A stretch of 26,340 bases of DNA from a virus: the IMG/VR virus record IMGVR_UViG_3300025011_000752, positions 1 to 26,340 of that record, one strand, 5' to 3'. Positions 2,408 through 26,066 of the stretch are shown in pieces. A program made the position numbers and the translations under genes. The notes below the pieces were generated by a model. That model made no database searches. It was not told where the DNA came from and worked only from the letters and a program-made list of their open reading frames with translations. The number at the start of each line of letters is the position of its first letter. Within the stretch, counting starts at the first letter, position 1.

Positions 2408-3193
2408 ATGACTACTTTAAACTATGTAGAATTTTACGGTACTTTAGAAAAATCAAACAACACATTAATAAGAAAAATAAATAGATTTTTATATGATACT
2501 CCTATTTTAGAAATATCTATTAACAACAAAACATTCATAATTGATGTAGAAAATATTTTTAATAGAAAATTTCTATGTGACAAAAGTAACTGTGATATGA
2601 TTATCAAATATAAAAATGATAATCCTTTAAATGACATAGAATTTATAGATGGATCATGTTGTGAAACAGGTTCTTATAGAATGTCTGAGATAACAGAGCA
2701 ATATATAGATGAACATTTAGATGAGATATTGCCATACTTATCAGGTAAAAATCAAGATTATATAAGGGAATTTGGATGGAAATATAATAAGCAAGATTAT
2801 GATGACAATAGTACAGATTTCACAGATTATGATTTATGTATTTTTAGTTTTATAGAAAATGAGATGTCTTATTGTGCATTGCATAGATATGCTTTAGACA
2901 ATAATATTGATATTTTAGAAGTAAAACCTTTTGATTGCTATATGTTTCCATTAGATATTATAGAATATAATAATAAATATATTTTAACTACTGTATCTAA
3001 TGATTCAAGAAATGCTGATTTTAGCAGATGGCGAGACTATCATTGTTTTAATAAATGTATTATAAATAAAGACAAAGGTGTTCCTATGTATAAACATAGT
3101 AAAGATGTGTTAGTATCATTGTATGGAAAAGAATTATATGATAAATTAGATGAAATTTATAAAAGTGATGAATGGAAGAAAATGTTGAAATAA
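2408..3193 (+). CDS. Unknown phage protein (261 aa)
   Basis: Not recognised. ATG at 2408 follows AAAAGGAG with a rather long spacer of about 13 bases, as for several other genes here. Acidic and aromatic, no membrane segment. Cys residues cluster loosely (CDKSNC at about 58-63, CC at about 83-84), without a clear zinc finger. Its last codons overlap the most upstream possible ATG of the carbamoyltransferase (3172), and the carbamoyltransferase ribosome binding site lies about ten bases after its stop. Confidence 0.7.
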   Translation: MTTLNYVEFYGTLEKSNNTLIRKINRFLYDTPILEISINNKTFIIDVENIFNRKFLCDKSNCDMIIKYKNDNPLNDIEFIDGSCCETGSYRMSEITEQYIDEHLDEILPYLSGKNQDYIREFGWKYNKQDYDDNSTDFTDYDLCIFSFIENEMSYCALHRYALDNNIDILEVKPFDCYMFPLDIIEYNNKYILTTVSNDSRNADFSRWRDYHCFNKCIINKDKGVPMYKHSKDVLVSLYGKELYDKLDEIYKSDEWKKMLK

Positions 3194-3216
3194 TTTATAA
3201 AAAGGAGATGAATATT

Positions 3217-4164
3217 ATTAAAATAAATAATCAAACAAGATGCATTAACTCTAATCAATATACACTAGAAAATCTACTAAATCTATGCAATACAACAGAT
3301 AAAATAAAATCTATGTCACAAACTTCAGATGGATTAAAATACCTAAAAACAATTCTATCAGACAAACGTGCAATGCTCTATTTCAAACAACCATCAACTA
3401 GGACATTTTTATCCTTCCAAAATGCATGTAATATATTAGGAATATCTACATCTGAAATAAGAGATACTTCTACATCTTCAGAAACTAAAGGAGAAACCGA
3501 ATTAGATGCAATTAAAACTTTCTCACAATACTCTGATTTGATTATTATGAGACATCCATCTTCAGATTTTATATATGAAATATCAGACAATTTATCTAAC
3601 GAAACAAGAATAATTAATGCAGGAAGTGGTACAGACCAACATCCAACACAATCATTACTTGACTTCTATACTATATATAAATATGGTTTAGAAAATAAGA
3701 AAATTGCTTTTGTTGGTGATTTATTAAGAGGACGTACTGTTAGATCATTATCATTGTTATTAAATAAAGTTAATGGTACTAAATTATATTTTGTTTCACC
3801 TAAACAATTTCAAATTAAATCCGATATCTTAGAGCAATTGAATGTAGATTATGAAATTACTGATGATTTTAACAAGATATTACCTGATATGGATGTAGTG
3901 TATATGGTGAGATTGCAAGATGAATATAAAAATGAAGGTATTAATGAAAATGAAATTATTGATACTAGTAAATATTCAATTAATAGTAGCAATATAAATA
4001 AAATGAAAGATGATGCAATTATACTTCATCCATTACCTAGAAGAGATGAGATTAGTGTTGAGGTTGATAAAGATAAACGTGCAAAGTATTGGCAACAGTG
4101 TGAAAATGGAATGTGGGTGCGTGTTGCGTTAATTATGAGTATGTTCGGAATGAGTAAATTGTAA
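3217..4164 (+). CDS. pyrB: Aspartate carbamoyltransferase, catalytic chain (phage copy)
   Basis: Would join carbamoyl phosphate and aspartate to N-carbamoyl-aspartate, the first committed step of pyrimidine synthesis. Counted from ATT 3217: carbamoyl-phosphate loop PSTRTF at 59-64 (usual form STRTRLSFE), the 80s loop SSETKGE at 87-93, HPTQ at 142-145, RLQDEY near 232-237 and HPLPRRDE at 271-278. The last motif separates it from ornithine carbamoyltransferase (HCLP). Length (about 316 aa) is normal. No regulatory PyrI chain is nearby. The start is odd: AGGAG (3203-3207) abuts ATG 3208 with no spacing, and the next in-frame codons at usable distance are ATT 3214 and ATT 3217. ATG 3172, inside the upstream gene, lacks a ribosome binding site. 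Confidence 0.88.
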   Translation: MKINNQTRCINSNQYTLENLLNLCNTTDKIKSMSQTSDGLKYLKTILSDKRAMLYFKQPSTRTFLSFQNACNILGISTSEIRDTSTSSETKGETELDAIKTFSQYSDLIIMRHPSSDFIYEISDNLSNETRIINAGSGTDQHPTQSLLDFYTIYKYGLENKKIAFVGDLLRGRTVRSLSLLLNKVNGTKLYFVSPKQFQIKSDILEQLNVDYEITDDFNKILPDMDVVYMVRLQDEYKNEGINENEIIDTSKYSINSSNINKMKDDAIILHPLPRRDEISVEVDKDKRAKYWQQCENGMWVRVALIMSMFGMSKL

Positions 4165-4475: not shown

Positions 4476-4673
4476 ATAATAAATTTAGATACAGAAAGAA
4501 AACTTCAAGAAATTTTAGAATACTTTTGTAAATATAAATGTGATAAAACTGAAATAGAAGAAAATATTATTGATATGGTAGAAGGTGATTTTACTGATAT
4601 ACAAATAGACGGAAATATATGTGGTATTTGCAAAGTAAGAGATTTTATTAGAGAGATTAGGGATGAATTTTAA
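4476..4673 (+). CDS. Small acidic protein with an ATA start, unknown (65 aa)
   Basis: An open frame without ATG, GTG or TTG near its beginning. AGGAG (4463-4467) is followed after eight bases by ATA 4476; ATC 4473 is the only other near candidate. Read from ATA the protein is (M)INLDTERKLQEILEYF and so on, with CKYKC in the middle and CGIC about 15 residues before the C-terminus, a possible four-Cys site. Codon use matches the neighbouring genes. The first in-frame ATG would cut the protein in half. Either initiation uses ATA or the start codon has decayed. Confidence 0.55.
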   Translation: MINLDTERKLQEILEYFCKYKCDKTEIEENIIDMVEGDFTDIQIDGNICGICKVRDFIREIRDEF

Positions 4674-4690
4674 AATAAAGGAGTAAACAT

Positions 4691-4963
4691 ATGTTAACCA
4701 AATTAGTTAATGATAAATTAATCAACAATAAACTACAAGAAATAATAAACTATTTTCAATTAGGTGAAGGTTATGATAAACATGAAATTATAACTGATAT
4801 ATTAGGTGAAATTAAAGAATTAAGAAATTATAGTGCAGATGAAATAGGACTTGAATGGGATAAAGAACATTTAATGATATTAGATGATTTTGTAAATGAA
4901 TTTTATAATTTAATTATTAAAAATGTATGCAATGTTTTAAAAAGTTTTAAGGATGGTAAATAA
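4691..4963 (+). CDS. Unknown phage protein (90 aa)
   Basis: Not recognised. ATG at 4691 follows AAAGGAG. Helical and acidic, no Cys pairs or membrane segment. Tightly spaced with both neighbours, so part of the 4.4-7.0 kb transcription unit. Confidence 0.7.
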   Translation: MLTKLVNDKLINNKLQEIINYFQLGEGYDKHEIITDILGEIKELRNYSADEIGLEWDKEHLMILDDFVNEFYNLIIKNVCNVLKSFKDGK

Positions 4964-4986
4964 TTTAGAAAGGAGTAAATAAGAAT

Positions 4987-5529
4987 ATGAGTATACAAGA
5001 AATATTAACTCAAAAATCTTATTGGTATCAAGATAATCAAAATTATATAATAGACACAGATTGGATAAATCAATATAAGCAACCTTCCCCATATCCTAAT
5101 TTTATTTGGTGGGATGAATATAAATTTAGAACTCTAAGATTATATTTTGAAATTGTTCTAAAAGAACGTACAGAAGAACATATAAAAAATACTAAACATG
5201 AACATAATGCTTATAAATCAAAATATGTAGTTACTATTTCAGGAGCAATTTCAGATGTTCCTTTACCAATTGAAATATGGGAATATCATGGCAATCCTTG
5301 GCATGGAGTAAATATTTATAGTGATTGTTTTTACTTTGGAAGAAAATACAAATATTTAGAAGAAGAGTATATAGGTAAGAAATTAGGAACTTCTAGTGCA
5401 TTAATAAAAGGATTTAATGATTTAAATGAAGCAAAAAGATTTGTTGAAATGTGTAAAATTAAAGCAATAGAAGATCATAAGAAAATTATAGAAGAAGATA
5501 AAGAAATAATAGAGATTATAAAGGAGTAA
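4987..5529 (+). CDS. Unknown phage protein (180 aa)
   Basis: Not recognised. ATG at 4987 follows GAAAGGAG. The first two thirds are aromatic-rich (repeated WW, YW and YF), suggesting a compact beta fold. The last 40 residues are a highly charged helix. The ribosome binding site of the next gene (AAGGAG) lies in its last codons, and the next ATG starts two bases after its stop region, indicating translational coupling. Confidence 0.72.
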   Translation: MSIQEILTQKSYWYQDNQNYIIDTDWINQYKQPSPYPNFIWWDEYKFRTLRLYFEIVLKERTEEHIKNTKHEHNAYKSKYVVTISGAISDVPLPIEIWEYHGNPWHGVNIYSDCFYFGRKYKYLEEEYIGKKLGTSSALIKGFNDLNEAKRFVEMCKIKAIEDHKKIIEEDKEIIEIIKE

Positions 5530-6355: not shown

Positions 6356-6550
6356 ATGGATAGAATTTCTAAAGCACAAAAAGCAGATGTATTAACTCAA
6401 TTTTCAGAAATGAAAAAAGAAGAAGGTAGGAAAGAAGAAAGAAAAAGGATTGCTGAAAAATTAGCGAATAAAAATTATTGTTATCTAATTTCTCATGAAA
6501 ATTGTACGGATAATTGTGTAATTTGCTTGGAGAAGTATTTAGAAACTTAA
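6356..6550 (+). CDS. Small charged protein with C-terminal Cys cluster (64 aa)
   Basis: Residues 1-40 are a highly charged helix (KKEEGRKEERKRIAEKLANK). Residues 40-60 carry four or five Cys (YCYLISHENCTDNCVICLE), a likely zinc knuckle. ATG 6356 follows GAAAGGAG. Role unknown. Confidence 0.65.
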   Translation: MDRISKAQKADVLTQFSEMKKEEGRKEERKRIAEKLANKNYCYLISHENCTDNCVICLEKYLET

Positions 6551-6582
6551 ATAAAATATAATACATAAAGGAGAGATATATT

Positions 6583-6726
6583 ATGAATAAGAAAACTTCT
6601 TATGGTATTTGTAAAAATGGTAAAATATATTGTCCTAATTGTAGAAGACTAATTAAAATAGAAAATGGTAAAAATATTACATTATGTTATTGTGTAAATT
6701 ATATTATAATTAAGAATGATAAGTAA
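6583..6726 (+). CDS. Very small Cys-rich protein (47 aa)
   Basis: ATG 6583 follows AAAGGAG. Contains CKNGKIYCPNC (about residues 10-20) and CYC (about 35-37), a minimal zinc-ribbon pattern. Short but with a good ribosome binding site and the same codon use as its neighbours. Not recognised. Confidence 0.6.
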   Translation: MNKKTSYGICKNGKIYCPNCRRLIKIENGKNITLCYCVNYIIIKNDK

Positions 6727-6752
6727 TAGAAAGAAAGGAGAATATAATATTA

Positions 6753-7043
6753 ATGAATAATAATTTAATATGCCCATTTTGTTTGCAAGATATTAACAAT
6801 CACGCATGGGATTGTGAAATGAATCCTGTTAATATAAATAATAATGAATATCAAAATAAAAATAGAATTGAATATAGCATAGTAGAAAGAATTCCGCATT
6901 GTCACATTTCTTGGTTAGAAAAAGGTATTGATAATTTTAAAAAACAAAATGAAAAAACAGATATGATTGATGGAAATATAACATTTCAAGAATTTTTGTT
7001 AAAATGGGTAAAAAATGATTTGAATAAAATTGTAAAATGTTAA
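6753..7043 (+). CDS. Small protein with N-terminal zinc motif (96 aa)
   Basis: Starts MNNNLICPFCLQDINNHAWDC: CPFC with a downstream His and Cys makes a CCHC-like knuckle in residues 7-21. The remainder is helical and unrecognised. It is the last gene before a strong terminator (7053-7089), so it closes the transcription unit that starts near 4.4 kb. Confidence 0.68.
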   Translation: MNNNLICPFCLQDINNHAWDCEMNPVNINNNEYQNKNRIEYSIVERIPHCHISWLEKGIDNFKKQNEKTDMIDGNITFQEFLLKWVKNDLNKIVKC

Positions 7044-7052
7044 AATTAATTT

Positions 7053-7089
7053 AAAAACGTAAACAAATTATTAAAATGTTTACGTTTTT
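7053..7089 (+). terminator. Rho-independent terminator
   Basis: Thirteen perfect base pairs (7053-7065 with 7077-7089), 11-nt loop, T-run in the distal arm and A-run in the proximal arm. It may work in both directions; rightward it ends the small-protein train. Confidence 0.8.
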
Positions 7090-7155
7090 AAAAACATAAA
7101 AATAATTAGCTAAAAATCATGAAAATATTAAATTTGCCAAAATTGACGATTGACA

Positions 7156-7179
7156 AAACCCTTGATTTATAAGGGTTTA
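7156..7179 (+). repeat. Hairpin repeat shared with position 1119
   Basis: AAACCCTT (7156-7163) pairs with AAGGGTTT (7171-7178) around GATTTAT. The right part (7165-7179) is identical to 1119-1133. At 1119 the left arm is degenerate. Both copies sit in the gap between a terminator or hairpin and the next gene, suggesting an operator-like element. TTGACA at 7150-7155 lies just before it, but no -10 box follows at a proper distance. Confidence 0.45.
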
Positions 7180-7235
7180 CAGGATCGAAAATCAGCATGA
7201 AATTCATCTTTTATTCAAAGTTAAAGGAGGATAAA

Positions 7236-7613
7236 ATGACAACATTAAATAATGTTAGTAATATTAAAGAATATTTAGACAATCCATATACTTATAAAGG
7301 AAGAGATACTATAAATAATTTTAGATATACTGGCGATGTTGAAGAAACAAAATATTATGAGACTAATGAATATATCATTTGTGAAGAAACTGATAGAAAT
7401 CAAATTACTATTTTTAGAAAAGATAATATGCCTGTAGAATCTTGGTATGATATGTGGAATATTAAAAATAAAATATGGGGAGATGAAGTTTTAGCTGTAG
7501 AGATATATCCCAAAAGAAGTGAATTAATTGATGGTTGTAATCAAAGACATTTATTTAAACTTAATATTGAAGGTAAAATAGATTTTGGAAATGCAAGTCA
7601 ATTAAAATTATAA
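7236..7613 (+). CDS. Phage protein resembling DUF7694 (125 aa)
   Basis: The start is ATG 7236 after AAAGGAGG; an upstream in-frame ATG (7197) has no ribosome binding site. The C-terminal half has SWYDMWNIKNKIWGDEVLAVE followed by IYPKRSELI and RHLF. To my memory this W-x(4)-K-x(3)-G-x(3)-A-x-E-x-YP pattern marks a family of small phage proteins of unknown function (DUF7694). It stands alone between a terminator and the RNA gene. Confidence 0.65.
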   Translation: MTTLNNVSNIKEYLDNPYTYKGRDTINNFRYTGDVEETKYYETNEYIICEETDRNQITIFRKDNMPVESWYDMWNIKNKIWGDEVLAVEIYPKRSELIDGCNQRHLFKLNIEGKIDFGNASQLKL

Positions 7614-7647
7614 GCAAAACAAATTTAACAAAATATAAAAATAATTG

Positions 7648-7676
7648 TTGACAACGCATAAACAAAATGGTAAAAT
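7648..7676 (+). promoter_or_regulatory. Strong promoter of the long noncoding RNA
   Basis: Perfect -35 TTGACA (7648-7653), 17-base spacer, -10 TAAAAT (7671-7676). Transcription would begin near 7683. It is the best promoter in the window and there is no open reading frame behind it. Confidence 0.8.
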
Positions 7677-7682
7677 AATAAT

Positions 7683-8293
7683 TGTAAGGAAGCAATAATA
7701 AAAACCTCGGAAAGCACTAAGGAGATTAGTAAGGGAGTGCAAGATGGGTATTGACATCAGATAACTAAAGTTCAATTCAATATCCTTTCTACTGTTGTGG
7801 GTTTCGGTAGATAAAAATGATTCTACAAGTATTAAAATTGTAAGTCTTAGGGTATCTCATTTAATAGTGAATGAGGAGTATATAATGGATTTATATAGTT
7901 ATTACAGAGTTCCTATATAATGGTAGTTATATAAGGGATGATTGAGAATACATGAAAACTCTGTTAATTTCTCAATCATAGTCTATAATGGTGGGAATGT
8001 AGACAAAAATATTTTAACCGAGAGTTACGGTGAGAATATAACTCATGTGTGAAGTTTGGATGGGTGTATGCACTTCATATGCATATGGGATGATTAATCT
8101 AATTAGTCATAAGTCTGTATCGGTGGGAATATAGACAAGTTTCACTCAATAATCAATTAACCATCAATCCCCAAAATTGATATGCAGTGGTCGAGCAAAC
8201 AATCTAATGTGGTTGTATAGACTAATCTGTGTTGGTTAGCACAGTTACATAATATGGTAGGTATTTTGGGTACCTACCATATTATGTATTTTT
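7683..8293 (+). ncRNA. Large structured noncoding RNA, about 610 nt, ROOL-like candidate
   Basis: A 704-bp gap between genes holds no credible reading frame but has a consensus promoter before it and a perfect terminator at its end. It is less A+T-rich than the flanking DNA and full of helices: 7746-7754/7777-7785 (9 bp), 7789-7794/7805-7810, 7856-7861/7870-7875, 7938-7948/7969-7979 (11 bp), 8050-8055/8072-8077, 8090-8096/8104-8110 and 8152-8158/8175-8181. 7904-7911 pairs with 7957-7964 inside the loop of the 11-bp helix, forming a pseudoknot. Three hairpins (7981-8004, 8022-8044, 8113-8136) share the loop GGTGRGAAT. Size, phage setting and Firmicute composition fit the ROOL class (about 600 nt); GOLLD is the next possibility. 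The class is inferred, not shown. Confidence 0.8.
8246..8293 (+). terminator. Rho-independent terminator of the noncoding RNA
   Basis: Eighteen perfect base pairs (8246-8263 with 8271-8288), 7-nt loop TTTTGGG, then TTTTT. It is one of the longest perfect stems in the window. Confidence 0.92.
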
Positions 8294-8317
8294 AAATAAA
8301 ATTAAGAGGTGTAAATA

Positions 8318-8596
8318 ATGGGTAAAATTAAAAAATTAACTATGAAAGATATTGAAACAGAAATTAAAAATAATACAAAAATATTAAACGAGATGTTAGA
8401 AAATAAAATAGATTATCTTATCTCTATTCTTGATAATAATGAAATATTTTTTCATAATCAATTAGAAAAAGAAGGTTTTATTTTTCCTATAAATGAAAAT
8501 AAAATGATAAAATTTTTATTACATTATATAGGTTTTACGGTGTTAGGTTTATATGAAGATTTAGGTTTAGATGATGATAAAAGTAATGATTATTAG
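8318..8596 (+). CDS. Small helical protein, unknown (92 aa)
   Basis: Not recognised. ATG 8318 follows AAGAGGTG. Begins with a Lys-rich helix and ends in an Asp-rich tail (LGLDDDKSNDY). First gene after the RNA terminator. It shares a unit with the next gene, whose ribosome binding site AGGAAGGAG begins at this gene's stop. Confidence 0.65.
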   Translation: MGKIKKLTMKDIETEIKNNTKILNEMLENKIDYLISILDNNEIFFHNQLEKEGFIFPINENKMIKFLLHYIGFTVLGLYEDLGLDDDKSNDY

Positions 8597-8609
8597 GAAG
8601 GAGTAGATA

Positions 8610-8978
8610 ATGGAAAATAAATTATATAATATTCATGTAGTAACTAAAATTGATAAACTTGATATATACATACATGAATTTAAAGTAAATAAGATAACTA
8701 AACAATATTATTTTTTAGATATGAAAAATTTTAGAAAACGAGATAAAAAGATGTTAATTAATAATATAAACAAAATATTTAAAAATGGTCGTGGTTTATG
8801 TATTTGGTGTGAAGAAAAAGATATTGAGTATTATAAGAATGTTTTAATATTAAGATTAAAAGAAAATTTAGAAAATGATAAAATAGAGTATGCAAAAATA
8901 AAAGATTATCAAATTGAGATAATTGATGATTATTTAAACATAGATGTTCATGATGAGATTAAGATTACAAAAATGTAA
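8610..8978 (+). CDS. Unknown phage protein (122 aa)
   Basis: Not recognised. ATG 8610 follows GAAGGAG. Alternating beta and helical pattern, with GRGLCIWCEEKD near residues 68-79 as its only distinctive stretch. No membrane segment. Lies 13 bases after its upstream neighbour. Confidence 0.65.
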   Translation: MENKLYNIHVVTKIDKLDIYIHEFKVNKITKQYYFLDMKNFRKRDKKMLINNINKIFKNGRGLCIWCEEKDIEYYKNVLILRLKENLENDKIEYAKIKDYQIEIIDDYLNIDVHDEIKITKM

Positions 8979-9070
8979 AACTGTAATGAGGTATTAAAAG
9001 TTAAATAATAAATGTTAAAATAGTATAGCAAAATGTAAATATAATTAAAATATAATAGGAGAACTTGCAA

Positions 9071-9119
9071 GTGAAATGGTGTGATCACACCTCCTGACGA
9101 GGAGGATATAAGGGATTTG
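9071..9119 (+). promoter_or_regulatory. Leader peptide and hairpin hiding a ribosome binding site
   Basis: AGGAGA (9057-9062) is ideally placed for GTG 9071, which opens an eight-residue peptide MKWCDHTS ending at TGA 9095-9097. The stop lies inside a perfect hairpin CCTCCT-GACG-AGGAGG (9090-9105) whose right arm is the ribosome binding site for the homing endonuclease frame. Translating the peptide would open the hairpin. Alternatively the TCC-TGA junction could permit a +1 shift straight into the endonuclease frame. A 14-bp perfect palindrome GGTGTGATCACACC (9078-9091) overlaps the leader. Confidence 0.5.
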
Positions 9120-10538
9120 AAGAAAGTATTTTTAGATAATTTACCTAGATATAAAGAAGGTAGATATAAAAATAAAATAAATTGGAAAAAATCAGTAGGG
9201 CATAAAGTTAAATTTATATATAATAATATCGAAGATGAAGTAGAAATTATTAAATATTATAATAAAAATAAAGAATATTATTTAAATATAAAATATAAAA
9301 ATGATATTATTTCTATAAATGTAGGGAATTTTACAAAATGTAGTTTAGGAGAAATATTAAAAATAAAAACTAATATATATAAATATAATATCAACGATAT
9401 AATAAAAACAAAAACTGGGGAAATAAAAATATTAGAACAAATAAGAATATTGAGAAAAATTGATACAGTAAAAAGTTATAAATATTTATGTTTAATAGAT
9501 GGAAATATAGATATAATTACTGAATATAATTTACAAAATGGCAAAGGATGTAATACATGTTATGGTAAAAAAATATTAATTGGATATAATGATTTATGGA
9601 CTACCCATCCTTATATTGCAAAATATTTAAAATATCCAGAAAGAGGATACAAAATAACTTATGGTAGTGGTGAATCAGAAATATTTGTTTGTCCTGATTG
9701 TGGATATGAAAAAGAATATAGAATCAATTATATGCATAATGGTTTTTCTTGTCCTCGTTGTGGAGATGGTTTGTCATATCCTAACAAATTTACTTTTAAT
9801 TTATTAGAACAATTATTAAGTAACAATTTTATTTCTGAATATAATCCAGATTGGATTAAACCTAAAAAATATGACTTTTATTTTGAATTAAATAATATTA
9901 AATATATACTTGAAATGGATGGTAGATTAGGGCATGGTAGATATAATCCATTAAGTGGTCAAACAGCAGAAGAATCTCAAGCAATAGATGATTACAAAAA
10001 TATAATGGCAGAAGAAAATGGTATAGAAGTTATAAGAATTGACTGTGAAAAAAGTGATTTAGATTATATAAAAGAAAATATATTACATAGTAGATTAAAT
10101 GAATTATTTGATTTATCAAATATTAATTGGTTGAAATGTCATGAATATGCATGTAGTAGTTTAGTTAAAATAGCATGTGATTTATGGAATAGTGGTATTA
10201 TAAGTACAACAGATATTAGCAATATAATGAAATTAAGTAAAAATACAATTAGAAACTACCTAAAACAAGGAGTTAAATTAGGATGGTGTGATTATGATCC
10301 TAAACTAGCATTTAAAAATAATGGAGGTAAAAATAAAAAAAGTATAATTCAATTATCTTTAAGAAATGAATATATTTCAGAATATGATAGTATAACTGAA
10401 ATAAAAAAACAATTAAATATAAATATTGGTAACATATCTGATTGTTGTAAAAATAAAAGAAATACATCTTATGGATTTAAATGGATATATAAAGAAGATT
10501 ATGAAAAATACATAGAAGATCAAAATAAAATTGCCTAA
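9117..10538 (+). CDS. Homing endonuclease, zinc-ribbon plus Vsr-like (EDxHD-type) nuclease
   Basis: A selfish free-standing nuclease. From TTG 9117: an N-terminal small beta domain, CxxC pairs at about 145/148, 192/195 and 212/215 (two zinc ribbons), then the nuclease core YILEMDGRLGHG with E266 and D268, and GIEVIRIDCE. It ends with a helix-turn-helix (NTIRNYLKQGVKLGW) and a NUMOD1-like DNA-recognition segment ending GFKWIY. The layout matches phage homing endonucleases of the I-Bth0305I/Vsr superfamily. Start choice is uncertain: the frame is open back to GTG 9081, which has poor spacing from its ribosome binding site; TTG 9117 lies 11 bases after AGGAGG; and entry by +1 shift from the leader peptide is possible. 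Related to the genes at 16645, 22117 and 24905. Confidence 0.85.
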   Translation: MKKVFLDNLPRYKEGRYKNKINWKKSVGHKVKFIYNNIEDEVEIIKYYNKNKEYYLNIKYKNDIISINVGNFTKCSLGEILKIKTNIYKYNINDIIKTKTGEIKILEQIRILRKIDTVKSYKYLCLIDGNIDIITEYNLQNGKGCNTCYGKKILIGYNDLWTTHPYIAKYLKYPERGYKITYGSGESEIFVCPDCGYEKEYRINYMHNGFSCPRCGDGLSYPNKFTFNLLEQLLSNNFISEYNPDWIKPKKYDFYFELNNIKYILEMDGRLGHGRYNPLSGQTAEESQAIDDYKNIMAEENGIEVIRIDCEKSDLDYIKENILHSRLNELFDLSNINWLKCHEYACSSLVKIACDLWNSGIISTTDISNIMKLSKNTIRNYLKQGVKLGWCDYDPKLAFKNNGGKNKKSIIQLSLRNEYISEYDSITEIKKQLNINIGNISDCCKNKRNTSYGFKWIYKEDYEKYIEDQNKIA

Positions 10539-11308: not shown

Positions 11309-11420
11309 TAATATAATGCGTTAATTAATCAAATATATTTCAATCATCCAACAATTAATATAGTAAAACTATATTAAAATAAGGGTTGTGACCTACACTA
11401 ATTTAGAAAGGATGATACTT

Positions 11421-11783
11421 ATGACAAACGTATCGAATAAGTTAAATGCAACATTGAATTGCAGACTTGACCCATCAGGAGTAGAAAATTTACAAAAGAA
11501 ATTAAAATCTTATAATCTAGGAAAAGAGTTTAATTATGCAGTTGCAGTATTAAAGTTATCTATTGCCAATGGTGAAAATACTATGCGAAGTGTTGTAGAT
11601 ATTAATCTTATCCCAAAAATTCAATACATAACTCCATTTGTCAGTGAAGAATTAGCAAGAAAATATGAAGATGAATTATTATGTCTTGATAAGTTAATAA
11701 TGTTTTTACCAGTAGGTGAAGATGGTAGAGTAATTTTGAAAAATATTAATATTAATAATGTGATGAATGAGATTTATAGTTAA
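11421..11783 (+). CDS. Unknown phage protein (120 aa)
   Basis: The start is taken as ATG 11421, about ten bases after AAAGG; GTG 11388 upstream has no ribosome binding site. The product (MTNVSNKLNATLNCRLD...) looks like a mixed alpha/beta protein with a long amphipathic helix (VENLQKKLKSYNLGKEFNYA). The N-terminal NATLNCRLD strand followed by two helices slightly resembles ribbon-helix-helix regulators, but the match is weak. Confidence 0.6.
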   Translation: MTNVSNKLNATLNCRLDPSGVENLQKKLKSYNLGKEFNYAVAVLKLSIANGENTMRSVVDINLIPKIQYITPFVSEELARKYEDELLCLDKLIMFLPVGEDGRVILKNININNVMNEIYS

Positions 11784-12139: not shown

Positions 12140-12727
12140 ATGTCGAAATCAAACTCAAACTCAAACATATGTAAACACCTATTAACCAATGAAAGTGAAA
12201 GAGGAATGGATCGTGCTATTATAGATTGGTATTGTGATAATAAAGAAAATTACATAAATCCATCAGAATGTATTAACTGTAATAATAAATATAGAAAACA
12301 AAAAGAAATAGTATACTTAGCAAATCCATATGGATTCTCTAAACAACAAAATGAAAAGTTATTACCTGAGATTATATCTAAAATTGAATCATTAGAATAT
12401 GAAGTATGGGAGCCGTTTAGAAAAAATAACCAAATAGATTTTGCAAATAAAAATTGGGCATATGATGTTGGTCAAGCAGATAAATCAGATGTTGAAAATT
12501 GTGATATTATATTTGCTATTGTAAATGGTACTCCACCAGATGAAGGTGTAATGATTGAATTAGGTATTGCAATTGCTTTAGGTAAAAAGATATATTTGTT
12601 TAGAGATGATTTTAGAAAATGCACTGATTCTGGTGAATATCCTTTAAATTTGATGTTATTTTGTGGATTAGGTAAAGATAATTGGAGAGATTTTTATTTT
12701 GAAAGTGTTGATGAGATTTTGTTTTAG
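12140..12727 (+). CDS. Nucleoside 2-deoxyribosyltransferase-like protein with N-terminal Cys motif
   Basis: Members of this fold exchange or remove the base of (deoxy)nucleosides or nucleotides. Residues 56-180 carry the family marks: VYLANPYGFS (substrate loop), DVENCDIIFAIVNG, and PDEGVMIELGIAIALGKKI, where D134 and E140 match the D-x-G-x(3)-E catalytic signature. Residues 1-50 hold C11, C32, C44 and C47, an added zinc-binding-like stretch that the basic enzymes lack. It lies just before thyX and other nucleotide genes, so a salvage role fits. Whether it is a transferase or a hydrolase (as in phage dCMP/dTMP glycosidases of this fold) cannot be told. Confidence 0.8.
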   Translation: MSKSNSNSNICKHLLTNESERGMDRAIIDWYCDNKENYINPSECINCNNKYRKQKEIVYLANPYGFSKQQNEKLLPEIISKIESLEYEVWEPFRKNNQIDFANKNWAYDVGQADKSDVENCDIIFAIVNGTPPDEGVMIELGIAIALGKKIYLFRDDFRKCTDSGEYPLNLMLFCGLGKDNWRDFYFESVDEILF

Positions 12728-12754
12728 GTTTTAAGTTAAATAGTATAAAAATAT

Positions 12755-12784
12755 AAATATAATTAAATATAATTAAATATAAAA
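12755..12784 (+). repeat. Tandem 10-bp AT repeat before thyX
   Basis: AAATATAATT at 12755-12764 and 12765-12774, then AAATATAAAA at 12775-12784, directly before the ribosome binding site of thyX. Each unit contains TATAAT or TATAAA, so it could be a stack of weak -10 boxes or an A/U-rich ribosome-recruiting stretch. Confidence 0.5.
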
Positions 12785-12798
12785 GGAGAATATCTATT

Positions 12799-13572
12799 AT
12801 GCAAGTAACATTATTAAATCCAGAGCAAGTTAAAAATATATTTAAAGAATGGGGAAATTTTGCGTGTGAATGTTACGCAACACCTCAAAAATATGCAGAA
12901 AAAGTAGGTAATAGTTGTTTTGAAACAGAACACTATAGTGGAAGTAGAACTGAATATATTAAATTCAAAATTGATGGTGTAGACAGAGGCGTAAATGAGC
13001 AAATCATGCGACATGAAATAGGCGTAAGACAATTTCCTATTGGTGAACATACATATGATGAGAATCCTAACAATATCATTAAAAATCTTAAATCATTTAG
13101 GTATGTAGATATGAATAATTACGAATATACTACACCTACTACTATTGATAGAATTCAAGAAGCAAAAGAAGAATATGATAGAATTAATAATGAAATAAAT
13201 AAAAGTAGAATTAAAATTAAGAATATCCTAATTAATAATAGAATAAAAGAAAAACAAGCAGTAGAAGATTCTAATTATGTATTACCTAGGGCAACAAATA
13301 CTACTTTAACTATTGGATTTACAATTGAAGCATTAATTCATTATATGCACAAAAGATTATGCACTAGAGCACAAGATTTTCATAGAAAAGTTGCAACAAT
13401 GATGAAGGATGAAGTTATTAAAGTATTGCCACAATTAAAAGATAGGTTAGTACCACAATGCGAGTATTTATTATGGTGTACAGAAGGTGAAAGAACTTGT
13501 GGGAGAAAACCTACTAAGGATGAATTAATCAATGAGTTAAATAGAAGTAAAATATTTACACCATTATTTTAA
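12799..13572 (+). CDS. thyX: FAD-dependent thymidylate synthase, ThyX type, with altered signature
   Basis: Makes dTMP from dUMP using methylene-tetrahydrofolate, FAD and NADPH. Supporting features: HYSGSRTEYIKFKIDGVDRGVNEQIMRHE (given by position 45-73), SFRYVD at 99-104, and the C-terminal block with LPRATNTTLTIGF (162-174) and HYMHKRLCTRAQ (181-192). The canonical signature RHRxxSxNxxSxRY is changed: R71-H72 is followed by Glu, and about 25 residues separate RHE from SFRY, where eight is usual. The overall length (257 aa) is normal, so the insertion seems compensated elsewhere. ATG 12799 follows AAAAGGAG. Next to other dNTP genes. Confidence 0.85.
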   Translation: MQVTLLNPEQVKNIFKEWGNFACECYATPQKYAEKVGNSCFETEHYSGSRTEYIKFKIDGVDRGVNEQIMRHEIGVRQFPIGEHTYDENPNNIIKNLKSFRYVDMNNYEYTTPTTIDRIQEAKEEYDRINNEINKSRIKIKNILINNRIKEKQAVEDSNYVLPRATNTTLTIGFTIEALIHYMHKRLCTRAQDFHRKVATMMKDEVIKVLPQLKDRLVPQCEYLLWCTEGERTCGRKPTKDELINELNRSKIFTPLF

Positions 13573-13618
13573 ATTGATAATATAAATATAATAAATAAAA
13601 AGGAGTAAAATTTAATAT

Positions 13619-14005
13619 ATGTCCAATTTAGAAGGTAAAATGAATGATACTGGACAAAGAATAAATTATGGTGAGAATGCAGCACAAAGAGAACCAGATA
13701 CAAATAAAGGTAGACCAGATTTAATTACTCCATTTGCTATGACAAGATTATCAAAATGGTATTGCCTTGGGAGTAAAAAATATGGTGATAGAAATTGGGA
13801 AAAGGGAATGCCATTTTCAAGATATACTGCATCATTAGAAAGACATTTAATTGCATGGAAAAAAGGTGATGAATCAGAAGATCATTTATCAGCAATTGCA
13901 TGGAATGCTTTTGCTATAATGCATCATCAAGAAATGGATGAATTGCAATGGGATGATATGCCACATTATTTGAGTAAGAAAAATGAGAAAGTTGAGGATA
14001 ATTAA
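13619..14005 (+). CDS. dATP/dGTP diphosphohydrolase N-terminal-type protein (128 aa)
   Basis: Matches the phage family formerly DUF5664 (PF18909, dATP/dGTP diphosphohydrolase N-terminal). The typical run is present: KGRPDLITPFAMTRLSKW, then YGDRNWEKGMPFSRYTASLERH, then DHLSAIAWNAFAIMHHQE. The family relates to the MazG-like all-alpha NTP pyrophosphatases, and E/H/D residues in these helices would hold the metal. Its likely role is trimming dNTP pools. It overlaps the next gene by one base (TAATG at 14003-14007), so the two are translationally coupled. Confidence 0.8.
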   Translation: MSNLEGKMNDTGQRINYGENAAQREPDTNKGRPDLITPFAMTRLSKWYCLGSKKYGDRNWEKGMPFSRYTASLERHLIAWKKGDESEDHLSAIAWNAFAIMHHQEMDELQWDDMPHYLSKKNEKVEDN

Positions 14006-14565
14006 TGAGTAAACAAAAATTCTTTGTAGATCTAGATTCGACCATTACTAATAGTGTTTTGGTATACACAAAAGTCTATAACAAAATATATCAATACTAT
14101 CCAGATTTTAAAATAGCAGATCCAAATAAACTAAAACAATATAATCTAAAAGATATCTGCCCTTTAGTTAATAATCCACTTGACATATTTGACCACGATT
14201 TATTCTTTAAATATTTAGAATTTATTAATGATAATACATATGAAGTTTTGGAAAAATTGAATAGAAAATATCAATTAATTATAGTGACAATTGGGACTCC
14301 GACTAATTTATCTAAAAAAGCATTATTTTTGAAAGAAAAGTTACCATTTATTAATGATTATATATTACTTTACAATGATGGATGCAAAGCAAATAAATCA
14401 ATTATAGATATGGAGAATGGAATTTTTATTGATGATGTAAGTAGCAATCTTTTTTCAAGTAATGCAAAAATAAAAATATTATATGGCAAGCGATTTGAAT
14501 GGAATATGGATTGGGAATGCGATTGGTGTTTCGATTGGAATGAAATTGAGTATAAATTTTTGTAG
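14005..14565 (+). CDS. HAD-family 5-prime-deoxyribonucleotidase-like phosphatase (186 aa)
   Basis: HAD motif I is D9-L-D11-S-T (FFVDLDSTITNS). Motif II is the VT in LIIVTIGTPTN (about residue 95), a Lys-rich stretch (SKKALFLKEK) supplies motif III, and FIDDVSSN (about 143-150) is motif IV. The order and size fit the 5-prime(3-prime)-deoxyribonucleotidases common in Firmicute phages, which dephosphorylate dNMPs. Coupled to the preceding diphosphohydrolase by a TAATG overlap, consistent with sequential dNTP to dNMP to nucleoside turnover. Specificity cannot be read from the sequence. Confidence 0.8.
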   Translation: MSKQKFFVDLDSTITNSVLVYTKVYNKIYQYYPDFKIADPNKLKQYNLKDICPLVNNPLDIFDHDLFFKYLEFINDNTYEVLEKLNRKYQLIIVTIGTPTNLSKKALFLKEKLPFINDYILLYNDGCKANKSIIDMENGIFIDDVSSNLFSSNAKIKILYGKRFEWNMDWECDWCFDWNEIEYKFL

Positions 14566-16644: not shown

Positions 16645-17990
16645 CTAATAATCAAATTCACTATTTTCTATCAAATAATATCTCAAATATTTCTCAATAT
16701 TATCATACTCCCAATAAGGTATTCTAATTAGTTGAATATTATTTTTAGCACAATATAAATTCTTCTTCATATCATTTTTAACTTGTTGTTTAAATTTTTC
16801 TATTGCTCTTTCCATAGAAATTCCACCAAAACGTACTGGTCTAAAATGTTGAATTCCATCATGTTCAATTAAAATTCTTAACTTCGTTTGCTCTTTATCC
16901 CAAAAAGTAGAAATGTCAAATTTTAATAATCTTCCACCAATACCTAGTAAATCATTAAAAATATATTGTCTACTATATGGAATATTAATACAATTAAATA
17001 TTTCATATAGTCTTTCTTCTCCTTTAGAATAACTACATTCAGGACAACGAAAATCACGAAGATTTGAATTTGATATTTTTCTAAGATAATCTTTATGCTT
17101 GCCTTCAGGACATTTCCAATATACTTCTTTTGATGACCAAGGAGGATATTCATATGGTGAATTATTATTTTTATTACTCCATAAATACAATAAATTTTTA
17201 TCTTCTAACAATTTACCTAAACTATCCAAAGGATGAACTTTACCACTAGCAAAAATATCACAGTATGGGCATCTACTTCCACTGGTGAAACTATTAGGAG
17301 TAGTATCGTAACTTCCATGATATTTTTTATCTTGGCATTTTATATATATATAATTTTATTATTACTACCATAATTAATTTCCCAAGGATTAAATATATTC
17401 TTTTCGTAATCCCAATATTTTTCTAAAGCATTATCTCCATATGTATCAATTAAATATTGGGCAAATGAATTGCATTTATCACATTGAATAAACCCATTAT
17501 TTCTTTTAGTAATATTGCTAATACGTTTTAATTCACTTTTATGAATTAATTTTGGACATTTAAAATAATATGTATTTTCTGTACCAAAAGTAATTTCACT
17601 TGGTTTGCAATCATTTAATTCATAATCCCATCTATCAAGAACATCTTGACGATTATTTTCAATACACCATTGCTCAAAACTAATAAATTTTTTATGGTTA
17701 TTTTTAGCACATTTCTGACAATAATATTTTCCATCATTTTTAATATATTTACTATAATTTCTCCACTCAACATTTATAAATTCTTTACCACATCCATCAC
17801 ATTCGATATTTACTTTTGCTGTACTGCCATTAGGTAAATCATCAACTCTTACCAATATCTTAGAATTTCTTGGAACTTGTAATTTGCCATATTTATTTTT
17901 TATTTTTGGTAAATCATAATTTAAATCTTCATAATATTTCAAATTAGTATTACTTAAACTTACTTCTGCATATTTACTAATCAATCCCAT
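16645..17990 (-). pseudogene. Homing endonuclease gene split by a TA-repeat frameshift
   Basis: Two frames form one protein. The upstream part (17340-17990, 216 aa, ATG 17990) has N-terminal zinc-ribbon repeats (CDGC, CQKC, CDKC) and breaks at NYGSNNKIIYI. The rest (frame open from about 17338 to 16645) continues CQDKKYHGSYDTTPNS, then CPYC, CPEC and the nuclease core LIEHDGIQHF with NNIQLIRIPY. The break lies in a run of six TA units (about 17341-17352); removing one unit joins the frames into about 445 residues. The core E-x-D-G-x-x-H fits the Vsr-like homing endonucleases. The C-terminal part has a TTG at 17229 but no clear ribosome binding site. Either inactive or switched by slippage. 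Confidence 0.8.
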
Positions 17991-22116: not shown

Positions 22117-23853
22117 CTAGACTATATTCATCATATATTCATCATAGTACATCCAACGTAATTTTTCTCCTGTTTCTGGATGTTTACCTGCCGATTTTTG
22201 TCTTCCTTTGCAACAATGACTAATACTACATTTATTACAATTATAAAATATTGATGCTTCTTTATTTGAATTAAATATTTTATTAGTAGTTAAACATATA
22301 ATTTTTTTATTTTTATATTTAATATTATTTATTTCTTCATTGCTAAACAATTTTCTTGGATTAATTAAATATTCATCATAGAATTGCCATTGTAAATAAT
22401 AATCATTTATAATTTCTTCACTGCATATAAATTTACCTTTACAAAACATATCAATCATATTATAACTACAATTATAATGCTTACTCGCTTCAGATATTGA
22501 ATGATATACCATTTTATTATTTAAACAAATTACTTTTTTAGACGAAGATATAATATTATTTATCTCTGGATTATAATTACACCATCCTAATTCTGCTCCT
22601 TGTTTAAGGTATCTTTTAATTGTGGCACTATGTAATTTAAATTTATCTACAATATTATTAATATTATTTTCATTATTCCATATATTACAAACATTTTTAA
22701 CCAAATTATTACATGCAAATTCAGCACATTTATTCCAGTCTATATTATCTTCTTTAAATTTTAATAACTTAGGTAATTCACTATTCATAATACTATTTTT
22801 AATCCATTCTAATTTACTATACCTACAATCTAAAATTATGTAATTTATAATATCATTTTGTTTTGCTAATTGTTCTTTTATTTTATCATTATATTGTATT
22901 TCTTTTAAATTATCCCAATTACCTTTTGTCTCTATATAATGTTGTTCTCCATGTGTTTCTACGATTGTATTTATATTATTTATATAAAAATCATATCTAT
23001 ATTTATCACACCATTTAAATGTTTTTTTAGATAATTGTACTTGAAAATTATTATCTAAAATTTGTTCTAATAAGTTAAACATAAATTTTTCTGGATATGA
23101 TTTTCCACTTGAAGAGCATATACATCTAAATCCATGTGTAATTAATACATCCATACTCATTTTCTTTTCATATCCACAATCAGGGCAAATCATTGGGATT
23201 TCTTTTTGTGAACCATAAGAATATTTATATGCATCTTCTTTATTAACTAAATAAATACTAAATTGTGGATGTGTTATAAATACAGTATTACATTGATTAC
23301 AACTAATACCACATCTATAGTTAATAAAAGTATTTATACTTTTTAATTCACTTTCATGTTCAGGATGATCTAAACACTTAAACCAATATCCTTTTTTATT
23401 AAAACCATGTGAACTATAAGTCACATCACTAGGAGTTAATTTATTTTCATTTTTATCAACATTTAATTCATAATCCCATCGTGCCATTATTCTATTTGCT
23501 TCTTCTTTGGATAAATTTTCGTAACACCAATCATAAAAAGAAATACTATTTTTTAACTTTGTTTTTCTTGATTTTACTAACCCAAATAATCTATTAACAC
23601 ATTTCTGACAATAATATTTACCATCTTCACGAACAATATTATTATAACTTTTATATTCCATAGGTTTTAAATATGGATTTTCACAATCTTCACAATCACA
23701 TTTAACTTCTACTAAAGCATGACTACCTTTTGTTAAATCTTTTATATCTACTTCAAATTCATCACCCATTTTAGTATAAGGATAACCTTTTAATTCATAA
23801 TATTTTCTAGTTCTAGAATTCCATTTAATTTTTATAGTTTTTGATAATAACAT
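22117..23853 (-). CDS. Homing endonuclease, intact, zinc ribbons plus Vsr-like core (578 aa)
   Basis: Start taken at ATG 23853 (MLLSKTIKIKW), after GGAGAG; an upstream in-frame start overlaps the previous gene. The N-terminus has the KGYPYTKMGDEFEV module shared with the gene at 24905-25816, then CxxC pairs (CDCEDC, CQKC, CNQC, CPDC). The nuclease core is NTIVETHGEQHYIE (E-x-H-G-x-x-H). It is followed by a helix-turn-helix (ATIKRYLKQGAELGW), nearly identical to that of the 9117 gene, and two NUMOD1-like repeats ending LQWQF and LRWMY. All elements are present, so it is probably active. It sits between two lysis-region genes, behind a copy of the 62-aa gene. Confidence 0.88.
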   Translation of the reverse strand: MLLSKTIKIKWNSRTRKYYELKGYPYTKMGDEFEVDIKDLTKGSHALVEVKCDCEDCENPYLKPMEYKSYNNIVREDGKYYCQKCVNRLFGLVKSRKTKLKNSISFYDWCYENLSKEEANRIMARWDYELNVDKNENKLTPSDVTYSSHGFNKKGYWFKCLDHPEHESELKSINTFINYRCGISCNQCNTVFITHPQFSIYLVNKEDAYKYSYGSQKEIPMICPDCGYEKKMSMDVLITHGFRCICSSSGKSYPEKFMFNLLEQILDNNFQVQLSKKTFKWCDKYRYDFYINNINTIVETHGEQHYIETKGNWDNLKEIQYNDKIKEQLAKQNDIINYIILDCRYSKLEWIKNSIMNSELPKLLKFKEDNIDWNKCAEFACNNLVKNVCNIWNNENNINNIVDKFKLHSATIKRYLKQGAELGWCNYNPEINNIISSSKKVICLNNKMVYHSISEASKHYNCSYNMIDMFCKGKFICSEEIINDYYLQWQFYDEYLINPRKLFSNEEINNIKYKNKKIICLTTNKIFNSNKEASIFYNCNKCSISHCCKGRQKSAGKHPETGEKLRWMYYDEYMMNIV

Positions 23854-23892
23854 ATAAATTCTCTCCTTCACTTTAAAAATTTTTACAAAATA

Positions 23893-23923
23893 AAAAGAAC
23901 TAAATTTTTGGTTTAGTTCTTTT
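23893..23923 (-). terminator. Terminator overlapping the end of the 62-aa gene, copy 1
   Basis: Twelve perfect base pairs (23893-23904 with 23912-23923), 7-nt loop, T-rich tail when read leftward. The stop codon of the 62-aa gene lies in the stem, and the homing endonuclease leader follows. The same hairpin is at 25866-25896. Confidence 0.8.
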
Positions 23924-24088
23924 CCACTCAATTAAATGTTTATTCAATTGTTCATTGTCAATATATAACCAAAACATTTTATGATTATTAGGATTGAGTG
24001 CCACAAGTTTATATTTTACTTTTTTAGATGTTAAATAATTGCGTAAATTTAAACTGTAGCAAGGGAATAATTGAATATCATTATTCAT
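23900..24088 (-). CDS. Small DUF5659-like protein, copy 1 (62 aa)
   Basis: Reads MNNDIQLFPCYSLNLRNYL, then a KLVALNPNNHKMFWLY strand pair and a C-terminal helix ending KRTKPKI. Identical to the product of 25873-26061. The CYSxNLRxYL ... FW-x-Y ... W layout resembles small phage proteins of the DUF5659 type. Function unknown. ATG 24088 follows GAGG. Lies between the endolysin and a homing endonuclease. Confidence 0.72.
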   Translation of the reverse strand: MNNDIQLFPCYSLNLRNYLTSKKVKYKLVALNPNNHKMFWLYIDNEQLNKHLIEWKRTKPKI

Positions 24089-24904: not shown

Positions 24905-25816
24905 TTAACTAATAATTTTCCAATCATCTAAAGTTATAGATGTAAATGTTCTACCGCTATAAATCAATTTATCTATTGCTTCTTTTAATTGTTCTAAAGT
25001 AGGTAGTAATACACCACTCTTGATTCTTGATATTTTCCAACCCTGAGATTTTGAAAATTCATCTCTACGTCTATCTTTTTGTTGATCTTGATGCCAATAC
25101 CATGCATCATACTAAATATTAATTTTAAAAACACCAATAAATAATCCAATATCTAAATTTATTCTACTCAATGGATAATTTAATTTAACATTATATCCAT
25201 TGTCTTTTAGTAAATTATATATGTATAATTGTTGAGATGATGTTTGACATGCCCCATTTTTATAAAATGATTGTCTAATTTCCCCCTGTATTTCTTCATT
25301 TTGCGAAGGAAATTCTACACCATATTTATCTAAACAAGTTTGTTTAGTTTTATCTATATATTCTTTAGTTTGTGTATAATTTTTCTTACCGTACTTGTCT
25401 AGCATGGTTTGTTTTAATTTTTCTTTTATTTTTTCTGATTGAAAAGTACATTCAACACCATATTTATCTAAGCAAGTATTTTTTGTTTTTTGTTTAACTT
25501 CTGATAATTTATTAGTGCTATCTACATTATAAATAATCATATTACTTTCTTTTATTTTTATACTTTTACACTTTTTGCAACAATCTTTATGTACTATTGA
25601 ATTAATATTTTTAGATAAATAATCATTATAAGACCTATTTATTATAATTCCACAATAATCACATAGCACTAAAATATCTATATTACTACCTTCACTTAAA
25701 TCTTCTACTTTAACTAAAAATTCATCTCCCATTTTAGTATAAAAATATCCTTTAGATTTAAAATGTTTTATATTTGCAGGATTCCACTTAACCTTTACCC
25801 AATCACTAATTAACAT
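24905..25816 (-). pseudogene. Homing endonuclease interrupted by an amber codon at its catalytic Glu
   Basis: ATG 25816 (after AAGGGAG) opens a frame of 234 codons: the KGYFYTKMGDEFLV zinc module shared with 22117-23853, then about four 23-residue repeats (TCLDKYGVExxxQ type, DUF7487/NUMOD-like DNA recognition), then SQQLYIYNLLKDNGYNV and INLDIGLFIGVFKINI. TAG follows at 25112-25114. The same frame continues YDAWYWHQD, RDEF, GWKISRIKS and LLPT to a stop at 24905, exactly the C-terminal half of this Vsr-like family, in which Glu normally stands at the TAG position (KIxIEYD). One change (GAG to TAG) explains it. Recently inactivated, or rescued by suppression. Confidence 0.85.
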
Positions 25817-25857
25817 ATAATTTTCTCCCTTCACTTTAAAAATTTCTATAAAATTAA

Positions 25858-26066
25858 ACAAAATAAAAAGAACTAAATTTTTGGTTTAGTTCTTTTCCAC
25901 TCAATTAAATGTTTATTCAATTGTTCATTGTCAATATATAACCAAAACATTTTATGATTATTAGGATTGAGTGCCACAAGTTTATATTTTACTTTTTTAG
26001 ATGTTAAATAATTGCGTAAATTTAAACTGTAGCAAGGGAATAATTGAATATCATTATTCATATAAT
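25858..26066 (-). repeat. 209-bp exact direct repeat, copy 2
   Basis: Second copy of 23885-24093, 1973 bp away in the same orientation, no difference seen. Homologous recombination between the copies would delete the endolysin and the broken endonuclease gene. Confidence 0.92.
25873..26061 (-). CDS. Small DUF5659-like protein, copy 2 (62 aa)
   Basis: Product identical to that of 23900-24088. ATG 26061 follows AAGGATG. Upstream DNA differs from copy 1 beyond the repeat, so the two copies have different ribosome binding sites and perhaps different expression. Overlaps a terminator hairpin at 25866-25896. Confidence 0.72.
   Translation of the reverse strand: MNNDIQLFPCYSLNLRNYLTSKKVKYKLVALNPNNHKMFWLYIDNEQLNKHLIEWKRTKPKI

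Follow-up and report, generated by a model that had tools for sequence, protein, structure and literature searches.

A phage locus that almost certainly encodes a large folded RNA of an apparently undescribed family

Organization of the locus

The window is the whole stretch of viral DNA that was analyzed, positions 1 to 26,340 of record IMGVR_UViG_3300025011_000752 (26,340 nt, one strand). In its left part a gap separates an ORF ending at 7613 from an ORF starting at 8318, and no ORF of 60 amino acids or more is found in 7614-8317 on either strand. The approximately 600-nt stretch in this gap is almost certainly the gene for a large folded RNA and not for a protein (Table 1). At the head of the gap lies a sigma-70-type promoter (7648-7676, TTGACA-N17-TAAAAT with a TG before the -10 box), which is an 11/12 match and ranks first among the 38 promoter-like sites in a scan of 6500-9500. 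The gap is closed by a terminator-like hairpin whose 18-bp stem is a perfect inverted repeat (8246-8263 / 8271-8288); its loop measures 7 nt and a T run follows, and only 0.1 such sites are expected in shuffles. The limits of the RNA were set by the -10 box (start) and by the hairpin and T run (end), and transcription would proceed from the 7648-7676 promoter. Termination may be leaky, given the short T run and the A/T-rich stem beside it. A sequence-only reading of the window had already proposed this promoter and the perfect 18-bp terminator at the two ends of a gap without a reading frame, and both were recovered here.

Elsewhere, the window encodes an aspartate/ornithine carbamoyltransferase-like protein (3172-4164; PF02729 and PF00185, E about 1e-30), which is unusual in a phage and is common to eight related contigs, and a nucleotide-metabolism cluster (12140-14565) with a nucleoside deoxyribosyltransferase, a ThyX-type thymidylate synthase, a dATP/dGTP diphosphohydrolase-like protein and an NT5C-like nucleotidase. 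Taken with the carbamoyltransferase, the cluster may be a hint of modified DNA bases or of altered nucleotide pools. The 26 kb also contain at least five genes that resemble those of homing endonucleases (9081-10538, 16645-17229, 17340-17990, 22117-23931, and 25112-25861). The protein encoded at 13619-14005 has a 63% match in one of the genomes searched at class level around a Clostridium genome, and with the base composition and the ribosome-binding sites this is at most a hint of a Clostridia-like host.

Table 1. Positions of the features described in this study, in window coordinates unless a relative is named.
Feature	Position	Strand	Evidence or remarks
Promoter with A/T-rich upstream element	7623..7676	+	-35 TTGACA 7648-7653, -10 TAAAAT 7671-7676
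Large structured non-coding RNA, ~610 nt (predicted limits)	7683..8293	+	Full-length homologues, no Rfam family, compensatory changes
P1	GCACT 7714-7718 / AGTGC 7736-7740	+	Paired in 3/3 homologues, one G-U change
P2	GGGTATTGA 7746-7754 / TCAATATCC 7777-7785	+	Two double compensatory changes, three homologues
P3 hairpin, loop TTGTGGGTTT	7788..7811	+	Loop invariant; stem survives two one-sided changes
Domain copy 1 (P7, P8, PK1, P9)	7812..8014	+	Single L015 copy matched at 82.8% over 145 nt, E=2e-39
Pseudoknot PK1	ACAGAGTT 7904-7911 / AACTCTGT 7957-7964	+	6-8 pairs in 3/3 homologues, no covariation
P8, 11-bp helix	7938-7948 / 7969-7979	+	Perfect in window; one compensatory and one G-U change in homologues
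P9 hairpin, GTCTATA-AUGGUGGGAA-UGUAGAC	7981..8004	+	GGUGGGAA loop conserved, one G-U change in stem
Domain copy 2, shortened tandem copy	8018..8138	+	Collinear matches to the single domain of L015
P10	8160..8191 (ATCAAT 8163-8168 / ATTGAT 8176-8181)	+	Loop CCCCAAA; possible base ACCA/TGGT
P11, loop TTGGTTAG	CTGTG 8227-8231 / CACAG 8240-8244	+	Loop invariant; two double compensatory changes
P12, terminator-like hairpin and T run	8246..8293	+	Perfect 18 bp; six double compensatory changes
Putative loop-loop contact K1	CCCAAAAT (P10 loop, 8170-8177) / ATTTTGGG (P12 loop, 8263-8270)	+	Complementarity
63-66-aa membrane-like protein (relatives)	L024 13779-13970; L023 6070-6261; L020 13772-13969; L025 13211-13411

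Homologues and an internal domain duplication

A short internal repeat, GGTGGGAATRTAGACAA, was scanned as a probe against IMG/VR and matched seven contigs, two of which (L014 and L015) contain the whole element. The L015 homologue (4479-5164) shows about 67.5% identity over 745 nt and the L014 homologue (5849-5145, reverse strand) shows 73% over 368 nt and 83% over 145 nt; E-values go down to 2e-64, and identity ranges from 67 to 83% by segment. Further motif scans of IMG/VR returned L014 and L015 again, the remainder being chance matches. BLASTN searches against named phages and plasmids gave matches of 30-45 nt only and no homologue, bacterial genome contigs yielded none in two motif scans, and the neighboring proteins (7197-7613 and 8318-8596) yielded no relatives when used as search handles. 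A covariance model of the 3' domain found no match in 391 + 399 + 28 bacterial genomes, a set that includes no known positive. Below, the RNA of the window and those of L014 and L015 are referred to as the three homologues.

In the three-way alignment, long invariant blocks (up to 24 nt) alternate with variable ones, and no reading frame is shared across the three homologues, in agreement with the gap having been read as non-coding. In the window RNA no sense frame exceeds 41 codons, and the one of this length starts with TTG and lacks conservation. A 73-codon frame of L014 is reduced to 42 codons in L015, with a different C-terminal part, and its equivalent in the window is cut by a stop after a few codons. 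Inside the RNA a micro-ORF, MDLYSYYRVPI (window 7880-7915), lies behind GAGGAG and has the counterparts MNLYSYYRVPIYR in L014 and MNLYSYDRVSV in L015. The short frames of the window and L014 were considered as genes and set aside, as they probably are by-products of the conservation of the RNA.

A domain of about 200 nt, reaching from the CCGAGAG hairpin to the GGUGGGAA hairpin, is present once in L014 and L015 and twice in tandem in the window. The second copy in the window matches L015 at 89% over 56 nt, 87.5% over 24 nt and 86% over 36 nt, and contains the CCGAGAG module with a GGUGAGAA loop (8022-8044), a GGGATGATT hairpin, and a second GGUGGGAA hairpin (8113-8136) which repeats P9. Module shuffling was considered for the displaced CCGAGAG module and was dropped, tandem duplication of the domain being the simpler explanation. 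The duplication offers natural variants for structural work.

Conserved structure of the RNA

The three homologues have at least nine (about ten) helices in common, which bears out the at least seven helices and the pseudoknot counted earlier from the window by itself. The 3' strand of the pseudoknot PK1 (AACTCTGT) sits in the loop of P8, and the core of PK1, ACAGAG/CTCTGT (7904-7909 / 7959-7964), is found in all three. The same sequence-only reading had suggested that homologous phage gaps be aligned and tested for covarying pairs; the alignment contains compensatory changes in P2, P8, P11, and P12. For P11 and P12 together (MAFFT alignment), 97% of the cells pair and eight pairs have changed on both sides, a result equaled in none of 500 shuffles, and controls with slid partners gave no such changes. 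Outside the 3' hairpin region, covariation among the three homologues is modest: in PK1, P8, and P9 pairing is near perfect and sequence variation is small, so covariation is weak there because little varies. Folding energy of the window RNA relative to dinucleotide shuffles corresponds to z = -6.2 with the terminator hairpin and z = -2.7 without it, and the homologous RNAs without their terminator hairpins gave z = -2.1 and -2.0.

The loop of P12 (TTTTGGG, 8264-8270) is invariant and the 13-nt top of this hairpin, GGTATTTTGGGTA, is identical in all three homologues. The stem of P12 thus varies and its top is constant, which a plain terminator would not be expected to need. P10 is likewise embedded in a 24-nt run that is invariant in the three homologues. 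The loops of P10 and P12 contain the only pair of complementary 8-mers conserved in all three (K1), and since any such pair arises in 386 of 2000 shuffles (19%), this complementarity is no more than suggestive. K1 is possibly a kissing contact of the two apical loops, and loop-loop complementarity of this kind would make multimerization of the RNA possible. A long conserved structure with promoter and terminator and with no conserved ORF places the element in the broad group of large structured non-coding RNAs of phages. Both the homologues and the compensatory changes support the earlier proposal that the phage has a gene here for a large structured RNA, with a promoter and a 3' hairpin of its own.

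Comparison with Rfam families

With respect to its class, the sequence-only reading had favored ROOL and had named a diverged GOLLD or a new family as the other options, with a search of the Rfam ROOL, GOLLD, and OLE covariance models as the check. At gathering level no Rfam family, including group I and II introns, tmRNA and RNase P, matched the window. A cmscan with 4227 families at E<=10 on the window, L014, and L015 RNAs did not find ROOL, GOLLD or OLE; the weak matches in the gap were to plastid, miRNA and snoRNA hairpin models only and represent chance hairpins. Searches of the three records with RF03087 alone (ROOL, gathering score 99.1 bits) or RF02032 alone (GOLLD, 150 bits) were empty. 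As a positive control, the same cmscan setting recovered the ROOL described for plasmid pMP118 of Ligilactobacillus salivarius (PMC5643018) with 130.4 bits (E=1.8e-28); this control covers the ROOL model, and the negative results for GOLLD (RF02032) and OLE (RF01071) stand without a control of their own. Loci of ROOL and GOLLD are often, though not universally, near tRNA islands in phages and prophages (PMC12286853), and no tRNA was found in the window or in nine fetched relative loci, the records being fragments. Neither ROOL nor a diverged GOLLD is therefore supported, and the new family is the best fit. The family is absent from Rfam 15 and apparently undescribed.

A promoter slot with alternative occupants

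The three RNA-bearing phages have the aspartate carbamoyltransferase-like gene and other genes in common, and five further relatives (L020, L021, L023, L024, and L025) were found via this gene. The RNA is absent from all five, even from L020, whose long flanks match the window at 93-96% identity. At the corresponding place all five have a consensus promoter, and in four of them (all but L021) it is followed by a gene for a membrane-like protein of 63-66 amino acids. This protein is conserved, has two hydrophobic stretches (IYIPWW.FLIIFICSGFGYAYY...), and gave no significant match in Pfam or PHROGs and none in named phages. In a search of the records it was confined to these four relatives, the three RNA-bearing records being without it, and no phage record contains the protein together with the RNA; with records that are fragments, absence of either gene elsewhere in those genomes is unproven. 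L021 has kept the window promoter (94% over 67 nt, 7623-7689), followed by a 360-aa ORF and no RNA.

Behind the slot, the gene that follows the RNA in L015 is, by eye, the counterpart of the one next to the membrane-like gene of L023, and the gene after the RNA in L014 is the counterpart of window 11388-11783 and of the L020 gene after the slot. By the matching downstream genes and the corresponding promoters, RNA and protein are alternative occupants of one promoter slot, and the RNA is, as far as these records show, an accessory phage element. The promoter element itself (A/T-rich stretch, TTGACA, 17 nt, TAAAAT) recurs in the relatives before other transcription units, several times shortly before a strong AGGAGGTGA-like ribosome-binding site, so it is probably a standard promoter of this phage group. 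Close relatives without the RNA thus exist, and the exchange provides natural pairs with and without it under a corresponding promoter, which to our knowledge is new for large phage RNAs. We know of no function for the large "ornate" RNAs of phages, and the role of the membrane-like protein might point to that of the RNA.

A second conserved non-coding element was observed in three phages (window 11351-11409; L014 near 5146-5090; L020 14165-14225). It consists of a hairpin, AATATAGT-AAA-ACTATATT, followed by AAAATAAGGGTTGTGACCTACACT, lies directly upstream of the start of a 131-aa gene, and is possibly a short cis-regulatory leader.

Possible roles of the RNA

The reading that we prefer, held with roughly even confidence, is that of an accessory, stand-alone, trans-acting structural RNA of about 610 nt that would be ROOL- or GOLLD-like in kind and belong to a separate family. 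It is based on the conserved promoter, the helices and pseudoknot, the 3' hairpin with T run, the lack of a conserved frame and the occupancy of the slot. The host sigma-70-type RNA polymerase would read the promoter during infection, the transcript would stop at the 3' hairpin, and the RNA would fold into a compact body in which the conserved loops (GGUGRGAA hairpins, CCCCAAA and UUUUGGG) could form tertiary or intermolecular contacts. In the infected cell it might act as a scaffold or assembly, as proposed for ROOL and GOLLD. The different genes behind the three RNAs speak against control of one particular downstream gene, and the domain duplication would suit a scaffold better than a switch. 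A bolder version, which we regard as doubtful, is that the RNA represents a new class without relation to ROOL or GOLLD, assembles via loop-loop contacts into a multi-copy particle and serves in infected cells the purpose that the small membrane protein serves in sister phages with its gene in this promoter slot.

A cis-acting role is the main alternative, though a less probable one. The RNA would then be a long 5' leader of the downstream genes whose 3' hairpin stops most transcription, and read-through would activate these genes. The trigger could be a ligand, the RNA itself (compare the HK022 put RNA) or, on the pattern of lambda pR'/6S RNA/tR', a Q-type antiterminator at the promoter. Read-through and a cis role are made possible by the next gene, which starts from about 25 nt (window and L015) to about 70 nt (L014) past the hairpin with no strong promoter in between. 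In addition, a search behind the membrane-like gene gave no terminator in three relatives, so that transcription of the downstream genes there seems to come from the same promoter; the window encodes a Q-like antitermination protein (1563-2183; PHROG 127, a weak match at E=2.4e-6), and the downstream region holds nucleotide-metabolism genes such as those for thymidylate synthase and nucleoside deoxyribosyltransferase. However, the three RNAs occupy a corresponding position and yet precede unlike genes, the immediate downstream gene being different in all three phages, which weighs against gene-specific control and not against general antitermination. The relatives, moreover, have this operon and do without the RNA. 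Known attenuators mostly stay far below 600 nt, and an internal domain duplication is not typical of them.

The remaining explanations are less likely than both the stand-alone RNA and the leader. The RNA contains three hairpins whose loops are nearly identical (7981-8004, 8022-8044, and 8113-8136) and could be a CsrB-like decoy, in which repeated GGUGRGAA-loop hairpins bind and titrate a protein of the host or the phage as a means of host takeover or counter-defence. We consider this unlikely, as the exact GGUGGGAA loop is kept in only one hairpin of L015; a CsrA sponge in particular was rejected, because GGA is not enriched (10 occurrences vs. 9.9 in dinucleotide shuffles). A true ROOL or GOLLD member that has diverged beyond the Rfam models would be similar in size, in its phage setting and in having multiple pseudoknots or kissing loops (PMC12286853), but is improbable given three homologues without a match at E<=10, where the same method gave a genuine ROOL 130 bits, and no tRNA nearby. 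Least probable by far is that the locus is not an RNA gene and represents a decayed coding region or chance structure: the region is indeed A/T-rich and has no known proteins, but the homologue comparison largely refutes it, as compensatory changes keep the helices, invariant blocks reach 24 nt and no frame is shared.

Comparison with known phage RNAs

The arrangement of a phage promoter, an untranslated leader, a terminator and an operon resembles lambda pR' 6S RNA and the HK022 put leaders, and the window also codes for a Q-like protein. In lambda, the genes behind 6S are late genes. The RNA of the window is about three times longer than 6S and put, and its structure is conserved across phages. 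With GOLLD (RF02032) the RNA of the window shares being a large phage RNA, but it is shorter, does not match the model and has no tRNA nearby. ROOL (RF03087) differs from it in the same two respects, model match and tRNA neighborhood in the fetched loci, and the domain present in one or two copies and the slot swapped with a protein gene also set the phage RNA apart. ROOL has been reported to form a homo-oligomeric RNA nanocage, of which the K1 complementarity would be at most a hint in the phage RNA. The two are nevertheless alike in their length of about 600 nt, their location in phages or prophages, their own transcription unit (predicted for the RNA of the window), and their many helices and pseudoknots.
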